23,860 nucleotides of DNA from a virus: positions 1-23,860 of the IMG/VR virus record IMGVR_UViG_3300030061_002337; one strand, 5' to 3'. A program made the translations under genes and the position numbers. Each line of letters begins with the position of its first letter. The stretch's first letter is position 1. Of this stretch, positions 14,521-18,132 are shown in pieces. The notes below the pieces were generated by a model that was not told where the DNA came from, made no database searches, and worked only from the letters and a program-made list of their open reading frames with translations.

Positions 14521-15429
14521 ATGGCTATATCAAGAGCCCAGTTAACAAAACAACTGGAACCAGGCTTAAATGCCTTATTTGGTTTAGAGTATTCAAGATA
14601 CGAAAACCAACACGCTGAGATATTCGAGCAAGAGTCATCTGACAGAGCTTTCGAAGAGGAAGTAATGTTATCAGGATTTGCAAACGCTTCAACAAAAGGT
14701 GAAGGTTCTGCAATTACTTATGATTCTGCAAACGAAACATTTACAGCGAGATACACGCACGAGACTATTGCTCTAGCATTCGCAATCACTGAAGAAGCGA
14801 TTGAGGATAATTTGTATGACAGACTTGCGTCTAGATATACAAAAGCTTTAGCAAGATCTATGGCGAATACTAAACAAGTGAAAGCAGCAAATGTATTAAA
14901 CAATGCGTTTAGTTCTGCGTTTCCTGGCGGTGACGGAAAAGCGCTTTTAGCGACTGACCACCCAACAATTGCTGGATCTTTCAGCAATACTTTAAGCACT
15001 GCAGCTGACTTAAACGAAACTTCATTAGAGCAATCATTAATTGATATTAATGCATTCACTGATGAAAGAGGTTTAAAAATTGCAGCTAGAGGAGTAAAAA
15101 TGATTATTCCTTCTGAGTTACAATTTACAGCTGAGAGATTAATGAAATCTGCTCAAAGAGTTGGAACTGCTGATAACGACATCAACGCTATCAACAACAT
15201 GGGAATGATTCCACAAGGTTACACTGTGAATAATTTCTTAACTGATACAGATGCGTTTTTCATCAAAACTGATGTGCCTAATGGAATGAAATATTTTGTT
15301 AGAGCGCCAATTAAAACAGCAATGGAAGGTGACTTCGATACTGGTAATGTTAGATACAAAGCAAGAGAGAGATACTCTTTTGGTTTTTCTGACCCTAGAG
15401 GTATGTTTGGTTCACCTGGAACTGCGTAA
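14521..15429 (+). CDS. Major capsid protein
   Basis: The 302-residue protein builds the head shell. AFAITEEAIEDNLYDRLASR (103-122), followed by KQVKAANVLNNAF and GGDGKALLATDHP, is the pattern I recall for an HK97-fold head protein group related to Mu gpT. The end GNVRYKARERYSFGFSDPRG is also typical of that group. AAAAGGAG at 14508-14515 is a good ribosome binding site. It follows the scaffold and the 152-aa protein, the usual order. The length is normal. Confidence 0.9.
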   Translation: MAISRAQLTKQLEPGLNALFGLEYSRYENQHAEIFEQESSDRAFEEEVMLSGFANASTKGEGSAITYDSANETFTARYTHETIALAFAITEEAIEDNLYDRLASRYTKALARSMANTKQVKAANVLNNAFSSAFPGGDGKALLATDHPTIAGSFSNTLSTAADLNETSLEQSLIDINAFTDERGLKIAARGVKMIIPSELQFTAERLMKSAQRVGTADNDINAINNMGMIPQGYTVNNFLTDTDAFFIKTDVPNGMKYFVRAPIKTAMEGDFDTGNVRYKARERYSFGFSDPRGMFGSPGTA

Positions 15430-15451: not shown

Positions 15452-16126
15452 ATGGCATTATCACAAGTTGGTTTCGGACTTAAACCAATAAACAAAGTAG
15501 GTTCAAACTATAACGCTGCCCAGGTTAGTGAATACATTGGTTTCAATGGTGGCTATAGCTTGGCATTTCAAATGCCAGTTAAAGTTGCGACTGGATTAGG
15601 TAATAGCACTCAAGTAAGACCGCAGTACAGTGAGAATGATACAATCACAGGTTCATTTATTGGTGTTTCATACGAAGACAGAAACACTGGTAAACCTGTA
15701 TTCGCTGATCACGTAACAAGTAACGATTTAATAATTAACCGTTTCAATTACGAAACAGACACTGCATCTTACTTTATTACTGATGATCCTTATCAATTAT
15801 ACTTGATTAAGGTTGATTCAGATATGACGGTAAGTGCAATGAATGGAAACTATTTTCCAAATTATGCTGGAGCGTTACCTAACGTAACTACTACAGCTGA
15901 TGGTAAAAGATCTATTGTTAAAATGGACACTGACAGTAGCCCTACATTCAACTCAGATGCAGTATTAAAGTTTATACATGTTGGATCTAGTGTTGACGAC
16001 AAAGAGTTCTCAAGCACTGGTACTTACTCACAAAGCAATAGTGATATACTAAATGCAGGAAGTAACGTTGTAGTAATGATTAATAGACACAGATACAAAG
16101 CTGGAACTTTCGGCGGAACTGGTTAA
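15452..16126 (+). CDS. Virion protein following the capsid gene
   Basis: AGGAGG at 15438-15443 precedes ATG 15452. The 224 residues are beta-rich with many Asn, Thr and Gly, and no membrane segment: FGLKPINKVGSNYNAAQVSE near the start and VVVMINRHRYKAGTFGGTG at the end. The position right after the major capsid gene, and before a terminator, fits an abundant structural protein such as a head decoration or minor capsid protein. I recall similar FGL-P proteins in marine phages. The precise role is unknown. Confidence 0.65.
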   Translation: MALSQVGFGLKPINKVGSNYNAAQVSEYIGFNGGYSLAFQMPVKVATGLGNSTQVRPQYSENDTITGSFIGVSYEDRNTGKPVFADHVTSNDLIINRFNYETDTASYFITDDPYQLYLIKVDSDMTVSAMNGNYFPNYAGALPNVTTTADGKRSIVKMDTDSSPTFNSDAVLKFIHVGSSVDDKEFSSTGTYSQSNSDILNAGSNVVVMINRHRYKAGTFGGTG

Positions 16127-16147: not shown

Positions 16148-16179
16148 GAAAGGCCCCATTGATTGGGGCCTTTCTTTTT
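16148..16179 (+). terminator. Rho-independent terminator after the capsid operon
   Basis: GAAAGGCCCC (16148-16157) and GGGGCCTTTC (16165-16174) form a perfect 10-bp stem with the loop ATTGATT, followed by TTTTT (16175-16179). This is a textbook terminator and ends the highly expressed head gene unit. Confidence 0.93.
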
Positions 16180-16611: not shown

Positions 16612-16716
16612 TTAGGTCTTTAAATATATTCTCTACAAAAGTGGTCAACACTTATAAGTATCTATTGCTTTTTTATAAAATTAGTTATATTTTAATTACA
16701 CTATACATTTATATTA
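16612..16716 (+). other. Non-coding AT-rich stretch, possible weak promoter
   Basis: No gene was seen. TTGCTT (16665-16670) with TATATT (16686-16691) at 15-base spacing, or TATTTT at 16688-16693 with 17, could be a weak sigma70-like promoter. The segment lies just before the structured leader at 16717, which needs a transcript. A palindrome CTTATAAG lies at about 16651-16658. Confidence 0.3.
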
Positions 16717-16770
16717 GAACGTAGACGAGTATAGTCGACGGCCTAGAGACTACGTTCGGAAACTAGGAGG
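16717..16770 (+). promoter_or_regulatory. Structured leader with a pseudoknot that covers the ribosome binding site
   Basis: Stem 1 pairs GAACGTAG (16717-16724) with CTACGTTC (16750-16757), 8 perfect pairs. CCTAG in its loop (16742-16746) is complementary to CTAGG (16763-16767), which includes the first half of the ribosome binding site AGGAGG (16765-16770) of the gene at 16779. This is an H-type pseudoknot geometry. A competing hairpin TAGTC/GACTA (16732-16736, 16748-16752) excludes stem 1. So two folds can be drawn, which may set translation of the virion gene. The five-base linker GGAAA across stem 1 is tight, so part of a stem may open. No match to a named RNA class was recognised. Confidence 0.55.
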
Positions 16771-16778
16771 ATACAATT

Positions 16779-17660
16779 ATGGCAAATACTACATTTTCAG
16801 GACCGGTACGATCACAAAACGGTTTTGAGAAAATTTCAAAAAATGGCACTACTGGTTTAGTGTCTGACGTTACACAGGACTATGGTGTAAAAGACGCAAG
16901 AAGACAATATTTATGCGAAAACTTTCAACGTAGACCTCAATTAAATGCATCAATAGGTGTTGCAGCAAATTTAGATTTTGAAGTTCTTGGAACTAATGCA
17001 GCAGATGCAGGTGTTACTTTTCCATCGACTACGTCTGGTATTAACATCGCAACAGCTGGAGCAGATCAAGATCAAATTATTATTGCTCCACATCTTGATA
17101 CTAACCAAACAGCTTGGACTGGTACTAAATGGGGTACTGAAAACCAAACTCAATGGGAATGTTCAATTTTATTACCAGCTCTTGACAATCAAAAAGTTTG
17201 GGCAGGTTTGAAATTAACTAATGATCAATTGATTTCAACAGATGCAGATCAAGTGTTTTTTAAATATCAAACAGATGCTAATAACTCAGAATCATTCACT
17301 GATTTTACTAAATGGCATTTTGTTCATAGTATAGGTGGAACTGATTTTATCAGTCAATTACCTATTACTGTTACTACTAACACACCATATCATTTTAAAA
17401 TAATTATAGATAAAGATAGAAAAGCAACTATCTTTGTAAATGGTGTTCAGTACAATGTAACTACTACATCTGGTAGTACAGGTGGAACTGCAGTTACTTC
17501 TGTAGCACCTGGACAAGTCCCTGTAAAAACAGGAGCGTTAACTAATGATGTAGACTTTATTCCTTATATTGGAATTGAAGCAGGCGCTGCAGCAGCAGAG
17601 TCTTTGACTGTTCAATACCAAAACATGAATAGAGAACATTTTGAAAATATAATTATATAA
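16779..17660 (+). CDS. Virion structural protein with a concanavalin/LamG-like domain
   Basis: AGGAGG at 16765-16770 sets ATG 16779, and that site is masked by the leader pseudoknot. The 293 residues start FSGPVRSQNGFEKISKNG (6-23). A beta-rich body has WECSILLPAL, then YHFKIIIDKDRKATIFVNG at about 204-222. The final part is Gly/Ala-rich and ends QNMNREHFENIII. The W-eCsi and yhFkI-iD-r-a-ifvNG spacing recalls the lectin-like jelly roll, so it may be a head decoration or fibre protein. The fold call is inferred by pattern. I recall similar FSGPVRS proteins in marine phages. Confidence 0.65.
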   Translation: MANTTFSGPVRSQNGFEKISKNGTTGLVSDVTQDYGVKDARRQYLCENFQRRPQLNASIGVAANLDFEVLGTNAADAGVTFPSTTSGINIATAGADQDQIIIAPHLDTNQTAWTGTKWGTENQTQWECSILLPALDNQKVWAGLKLTNDQLISTDADQVFFKYQTDANNSESFTDFTKWHFVHSIGGTDFISQLPITVTTNTPYHFKIIIDKDRKATIFVNGVQYNVTTTSGSTGGTAVTSVAPGQVPVKTGALTNDVDFIPYIGIEAGAAAAESLTVQYQNMNREHFENIII

Positions 17661-17680: not shown

Positions 17681-17706
17681 GGGGCGCCTGGTAATGCAGG
17701 CGTCCT
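17681..17706 (+). repeat. GC-rich intergenic hairpin before the next ribosome binding site
   Basis: GGGGCGCCTG (17681-17690) pairs with CAGGCGTCCT (17697-17706) over a GTAATG loop: 10 pairs, two of them G-U. TCCTT (17703-17707) can instead pair with AAGGA (17711-17715), covering the next ribosome binding site. The hairpin lacks a clear U-tract, so it may be a weak terminator, an mRNA-stabilising element or a translational switch. Confidence 0.5.
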
Positions 17707-17721: not shown

Positions 17722-18132
17722 ATGGCAGACACAGTTTTAAACACAACCGTATTTGACGGTGCAAAAAAATTAATAACTCATTACAATGTAGTTGGTGATG
17801 GAACAGGTAATACAACAAAGATAGTTGATGTTTCTACATTAGCAACAAGCACTTTAAATGGAAAAGCTTGTACAAGAGTTAAATTAATCAAAGTAGATTT
17901 TAACGTTTCAGTTACAGCTCCAGTTGATGGAATTAGATTAGCATGGGATGCTACAACTGATGTTGTATTTCAAACACTAGCAGGCGAAATGTCTTTTGAC
18001 TATTCAGCTTTTGGTGGACTAAGAAATACTAATGCAGCAGGAGTTACAGGAGACGTTAATTTAACATTGCCAGCTCACACATCAGGAGATACCGCTACTG
18101 TTGTATGTACGTGGCTAAAACAATACGACTAG
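17722..18132 (+). CDS. Small virion structural protein
   Basis: AAAAGGAG (17710-17717) precedes ATG 17722. The 136-residue product is beta-rich: VDGIRLAWDATTDVVFQTLA (72-91), then FGGLRNTNAAGVTGDVNLTL and VVCTWLKQYD at the end. I recall this WDAT-GGL-N-GvtGD pattern as a common small virion protein of marine phages next to head or tail genes. No membrane segment. Role unknown; head decoration or tail-associated are both open. Confidence 0.65.
   Translation: MADTVLNTTVFDGAKKLITHYNVVGDGTGNTTKIVDVSTLATSTLNGKACTRVKLIKVDFNVSVTAPVDGIRLAWDATTDVVFQTLAGEMSFDYSAFGGLRNTNAAGVTGDVNLTLPAHTSGDTATVVCTWLKQYD

Follow-up and report, generated by a model that had tools for sequence, protein, structure and literature searches.

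A candidate double-pseudoknot leader RNA upstream of capsid decoration genes in pelagiphages

Few viruses are as abundant as the pelagiphages, and the leader RNA described here occurs in hundreds of marine phages whose relatives infect the most abundant bacteria of the ocean. The window analyzed here, a stretch of 23,860 nucleotides corresponding to bases 1–23860 of a 56.9-kb virus record (IMGVR_UViG_3300030061_002337), was assigned to an HTVC023P-type pelagiphage because its capsid gene (14521–15429) and its portal protein match the cultured pelagiphage HTVC027P, the former at 79% identity (gp59) and the latter at 72%. On the plus strand, the gene at 16779–17660 encodes a 293-aa protein predicted to be of the capsid decoration or spike type, and the leader directly upstream raises the question of which structure it forms and what that structure does for the gene. 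The GC content of 16717–16770 is 52%, compared with 34% in the window and 21% in the 117 nt upstream, which confirms the enrichment described in an earlier note made from the sequence alone. The full record carries a single copy of the leader. A strong terminator-like hairpin (11 pairs with a T-rich tail) lies upstream at 16148–16174, after the ORF at 15452–16126, as would be expected if the gene at 16779 had a transcript of its own.

The 8-bp stem and the CCTAG and CTAGG segments reported in the earlier note were all exactly placed, as established by re-examination of the coordinates (all features are on the plus strand). The 5′ arm of the stem, termed P1 here (GAACGTAG, 16717–16724), pairs with its 3′ arm (CTACGTTC, 16750–16757), and CCTAG (strand Y, 16742–16746), located inside the P1 loop, pairs and covaries with CTAGG (strand Y′, 16763–16767), whose last three bases are also the first three of the Shine-Dalgarno (SD) sequence AGGAGG (16765–16770), 8 nt before the ATG at 16779. 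The 5-nt linker GGAAA (16758–16762) crosses P1. These two helices had been described as a pseudoknot; both are real, but two further helices had been missed. The hairpin P2 (CGA-GTATAG-TCG, 16726–16737) is formed by CGA at 16726–16728 and TCG at 16735–16737, and its 6-nt loop GTATAG (strand X, 16729–16734) pairs with CTATAC (strand X′, 16701–16706), the 5′ half of an upstream pseudoknot, which is separated from P1 by an AT-rich linker (16707–16716). The predicted fold is thus a double pseudoknot and not a single one of the H type: hairpin P1 encloses P2, the P2 loop pairs upstream and Y pairs with the ribosome-binding region.

This leader is a member of a class that occurs in hundreds of IMG/VR contigs, in two pelagiphages in culture, HTVC027P and HTVC023P, and in the lake phage DSL-LC04. 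The 20-mer GAACGTAGACGAGTATAGTC, which covers the 5′ half, was found in at least 119 IMG/VR contigs, and each copy is followed by the same loop, then by CTAGGAGG and then by a start codon. Model R1, which was built with the window copy included, gives that copy a score of 53.6 bits (E 6e-12). Two main types of leader, A and B, align colinearly in the order X′, P1, AC, the P2 hairpin with the 6-nt loop X, AC, Y, AGA, P1′ and Y′; a circular-permutation relation between them was considered and dropped once they had been aligned as P1-AC-X-GAC-Y-AGA-P1. Class members share the four helices P1, P2, X/X′ and Y/Y′ with compensatory changes, together with a loop spacing of GAC-10-GAC-7-AGAC (AC-10-GAC-7-AGA as the defining pattern). 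Across the class, X′ lies 14–22 nt ahead of the core, and the distance from the core end to Y′ in A-type leaders is 11–15 nt, the P1 3′ arm counted in. The short P2 stem is formed by CGA/UCG, CUG/CAG or CCG/CGG. Since motif searches biased the set of fetched sequences, an independent sample was chosen by protein profile only; the element was found in 77 of its 79 readable leaders, 50 by the strict pattern and the rest by eye. The P1-closing G-C pair is replaced by A-U in several leaders of this sample and by U-A in DSL-LC04, and the divergent copy 023Pt_psg01 keeps every pairing. The GAC triplets were fixed by the search patterns, so that their invariance is overstated, and they are altered in the divergent copies 023Pt_psg01 and DSL-LC04.

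Single-sequence folding and counts in Markov sequences were uninformative and therefore were not used as support: the folding z-score of the leader is +0.36, and an 8-bp stem with a 5-bp downstream pseudoknot occurs 7 times on the window's strand versus approximately 3 times (maximum 8) in Markov sequences. The helices are short, with isolated energies of −3.9 kcal/mol for X, −4.7 kcal/mol for Y and −9.6 kcal/mol for P1 and P2 together. It is comparison among relatives, rather than the window sequence alone, that is decisive for the predicted helices. Scans that required a change in one helix element retrieved compensated variants, including GAACGTA/TACGTTC, GAATCTA/TAGATTC, GATCATA/TATGATC and many others for P1, and CTGTA/TACAG, CTGCG/CGCAG, CTGAG/CTCAG, CTGAA/TTCAG, CTGCA/TGCAG and CTGGG/CCCAG for X/X′. 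The Y/Y′ helix changes from CCTAG/CTAGG to CCAAG/CTTGG in at least 40 contigs with A-type leaders, and 12 distinct Y/Y′ helices occur over the A and B1 types. A-type X loops match their own X′ partner in 173 of 174 cases, compared with 5 of 1044 when loops are swapped, and the X helix shows five of five Watson-Crick pairs in all 104 non-redundant sequences (mean 21, maximum 35 in 1000 shuffles with swapped loops). The Y helix of the A and B1 types is present in 67/67 sequences (shuffled mean 19.5, maximum 30). In a set of 69 sequences that differ from one another at three or more core positions, 94.6% of the P1 and P2 cells are paired versus 63.5% after shuffling, the covariation score of these stems is 0.832 versus 0.229 and is lost when the partners are slid by 1–3 columns, and double compensatory changes are found in nine of the nine modeled P1 pairs, eight of which form in the window. 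All 32 distinct loop sequences have a standard pair at the outer variable position of P2. Both helices of the earlier note are thus compensated in relatives, where uncompensated loss of either stem had been named as the outcome that would count against them. The conserved ACTATACAAT was also considered as a mere −10 box, which was ruled out by its covariation with the loop. A competing TAGTC/GACTA pairing, proposed to break P1 as a switch, is not supported: it can form in the window but is not conserved in the class, its five pairs being complete in 62 of 108 A-type leaders, where three of them fall on core letters fixed or strongly favored by the search, and the loops of the B types (ending in GCA) are incapable of forming it.

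The target of the downstream strand differs among leader types. In A-type leaders, Y′ lies on the first half of the SD, 8–12 nt before the ATG. In B-type leaders, which precede homologues of the window protein, an upstream CTAGG pairs with the loop CCTAG and a variable Y pairs downstream, forming GTAGTAG/CTACTAC, GTATAG/CTATAC, TTACGA/TCGTAA and other helices; HTVC023P has a B-type leader in which the two strands are exchanged. The Y partner in B1 leaders is located 9–20 nt before the start codon, adjoining the upstream edge of the SD without lying on it, and that in B3 leaders is the SD sequence GGAG. In B2 leaders, a GCC(A/G) loop is opposite AUGGC in 67/67 cases and CCC is opposite AUGGG in 2/2, and a hairpin of at least 5 bp involves the ribosome-binding site in 66 of 69 leaders versus 27 of 69 shuffled sequences. 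Conserved pairing over the SD or start codon is accordingly seen in A, B3 and B2 leaders and is adjacent only in B1, so that the proposal of a pseudoknot over the ribosome-binding site applies to the window and the A type, whereas B1 pairs just upstream of the SD and B2 uses the start codon and a ribosome-binding-site hairpin instead. Different letters thus converge on the SD or AUG, which points to control of translation initiation. One topological oddity was observed at L209:2606-2680, where the loop CCTAG seemingly pairs with a downstream CTAGG of the SD and has no upstream partner.

Among the 546 motif matches listed, 540 precede an ORF that starts with M-x-x-T/S-T-F, as judged by pattern; five of the remaining six precede start codons and one lies within a coding sequence. 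The products share only an N-terminal arm, MANTTFSGPVRS (MANTTFSGPV), which varies at synonymous positions and therefore is conserved at the protein level rather than as a part of the RNA. Past residue 25, they fall into 17 otherwise unrelated clusters, the larger of which are found downstream of A, B1 and B2 leaders alike. The largest cluster shows a predicted likeness to the capsid spike of Pseudomonas phage Pa223 (E 8e-5), and the second is homologous to a protein of DSL-LC04 that is annotated as a cement protein and encoded next to the capsid gene. No match to this cement protein was retrieved from the PDB by sequence alone. An AlphaFold model and a PDB fold search assign the body of the window protein to the ConA-like lectin beta-jelly-roll fold, and its first 42 residues are flexible in the model. 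The cement protein of phage Pam1 contacts the capsid via an elongated N-terminal loop (PMC9698820). We infer that the products decorate the capsid, to which they would dock through their common arm, and that their outer domains are exchangeable.

Of 257 leaders, 71 have a −10-like (TATAAT-like) hexamer that ends exactly 7 nt upstream of X′ (1 in shuffled sequences), and 138 have one that ends 5–10 nt upstream (12 in shuffled sequences). This peak suggests that transcription starts at X′ in many members, which would tie the 5′ end of the mRNA into the fold, and the approximately 65-nt RNA is often probably located at the 5′ end of the decoration-gene mRNA. HTVC027P encodes no RNA polymerase and depends on that of its host (PMC12753301), in line with a sigma-70-like start. 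In the window, no strong sigma-70 match was identified upstream of X′, where the hexamer is weak, and many B2 leaders lie behind a terminator-like hairpin and show no obvious promoter. In some leaders (L622 and leaders of the A type), a TATAAT-like hexamer directly adjoins X′ or shares bases with it, so that the promoter would be elsewhere or would share its sequence with the pseudoknot strand.

On the basis of these comparisons, the element most likely serves to control translation initiation, and we consider it reasonably probable that it is a cis-acting, translation-controlling leader RNA of approximately 65 nt for the capsid decoration gene. The nascent RNA would fold into P1 with the inner hairpin P2; the P2 loop X would then pair back to the first nucleotides (X′) and Y would pair forward to the initiation region (Y′). 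The folded state would restrict ribosome entry at the decoration gene alone, and its opening by a protein, a ligand or loading kinetics would allow production of decoration protein at the right time or in the right ratio to the capsid. The helices, their conservation, their location and their target gene are observed; a lowering of translation by the structure, and a switch that acts on it, are what we infer from them, and the knot probably controls the timing or amount of decoration protein. Our best guess for the switch, weakly held, is feedback via the shared N-terminal arm or capsid assembly, because the protein bodies vary and the RNA core does not; feedback via the body is hard to reconcile with 17 unrelated bodies. 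The 30S subunit might tolerate the Y helix upstream of the SD in B1 leaders, a point against the initiation model. A bolder extension, in which the leaders form a globally abundant family of phage RNA regulators whose two-sided (5′/3′) pseudoknot senses capsid assembly via the docking arm and matches decoration to capsid, is speculative and rather improbable.

The position of X′ near +1 in many members, with hexamers 7 nt upstream, is accounted for equally well by a 5′-end protector or processing element, which would shield the first nucleotides of the mRNA from decay and make a late virion transcript long-lived, with ribosome binding not the target. The mRNA of T4 gene 32, also with a leader pseudoknot, is unusually stable (PMC3014915). 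Protection from decay does not, however, require what is seen in all subtypes, a Y partner that tracks the SD or the start codon (the pairing of AUGGG with CCC included), and the many B2 leaders located behind terminator-like hairpins fit it poorly; we consider this explanation unlikely. Still less probable is a riboswitch, in which the invariant AC...GAC...AGA between the helices would form a small-molecule pocket and a ligand would stabilize the closed form. Compact double pseudoknots are a typical riboswitch architecture, and A10, C11, G22–C24 and A32–A34 (alignment A3) and the loop spacing are invariant while the helices vary, C11-G22 being the fixed P2 pair; against this, the GAC invariance derives partly from the search patterns and breaks down in the two divergent copies noted above, and the controlled gene is in every case a virion gene, not a metabolic one.

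Nested double pseudoknots with invariant unpaired bases are also found in ribozymes, a resemblance that would suit a self-cleaving or RNase-processed element. This reading is very improbable, as no Rfam ribozyme matched even below threshold and the conservation runs to the start codon instead of being centered on one scissile position. Chance complementarity or a DNA-level repeat, such as a protein-binding site or recombination hotspot, would agree with the lack of significant structure in the window sequence alone, but has a negligible probability given the compensatory changes in four helices over 69–104 non-redundant sequences and the restriction to the sense strand of one gene.

The suggestion of a new phage RNA element was borne out, in that a covarying class was found without a match in any Rfam 15 family at gathering or relaxed thresholds. 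The whole window gave no hits at the gathering cut-off and the leader gave a chance match only (E 9.9); nothing was retrieved for A, B1 and further A-type loci, and only chance matches for B2 loci. In INPHARED, neither megablast of the region nor tblastn of the window protein gave a match, and blastn with the short leader was the only search that recovered HTVC027P; another blastn match (H2), the Venkman phage, is without the element. In the papers searched, no prior description of this leader RNA and no structured RNA regulator in pelagiphages was identified; a catalogue of candidate structured RNAs from viruses and phages, compiled on a large scale and reportedly dating from 2023, may list the motif.

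The nearest known mechanism is the autogenous gp32 operator in the gene 32 leader of T4, T2 and RB69, likewise a pseudoknot in a phage mRNA leader upstream of the ribosome-binding site of the gene thought to be controlled, which was termed in 2010 perhaps the sole viral pseudoknot in translational autoregulation (PMC3014915). That operator, an H-type pseudoknot with two coaxial helices, lies 67 nt ahead of the start codon of a gene for an ssDNA-binding protein, with AU-rich repeats over the ribosome-binding site, whereas the pelagiphage element combines two pseudoknots with an inner hairpin, has its partner strand on or next to the SD or AUG of a capsid decoration gene, and is of greater breadth; topology, distance and target gene all differ from those of the T4-type operator. 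The E. coli S15/rpsO operator is also a translational pseudoknot at the ribosome-binding site, but of a cellular gene and with a different topology, its sequence comparison with the leader being the Rfam scan only. Riboswitches of the preQ1-II, SAM-II and SAM-V types are likewise small pseudoknots whose 3′ strand captures the SD, and differ in gene context and by the lack of an Rfam match to the leader. We therefore rate the leader as a candidate new RNA class within translation-controlling leaders. With it, phage translational pseudoknots would reach far beyond gene 32, and the question of how the amount of capsid decoration protein is set in a phage becomes open to direct test, in a system where one kind of gene swaps its protein body and keeps its RNA and N-terminal arm.

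Several further loci were observed. Related decoration/cement-type genes in Roseobacter phage CRP-901 (L685:540-720), L643 and L647 have a different leader, composed of CCCTGAC, a hairpin and TAGCCAnGACAGGAG, in which CCTG could pair with the SD sequence CAGG and GCCA with the start codon; this may be a third leader type, either unrelated or reduced. A B1-type leader with a decoration gene is present in contig QLUN01000005.1 (L602) of a Chloroflexi MAG, which is probably a binned phage contig and not a host locus. Directly 3′ of the gene at 16779, a GC-rich inverted repeat (GGGCGCCTG...CAGGCGTCC, 17682–17705) is followed by TTTAAAA, and may form a 3′ end or a further leader structure ahead of the ORF at 17722.
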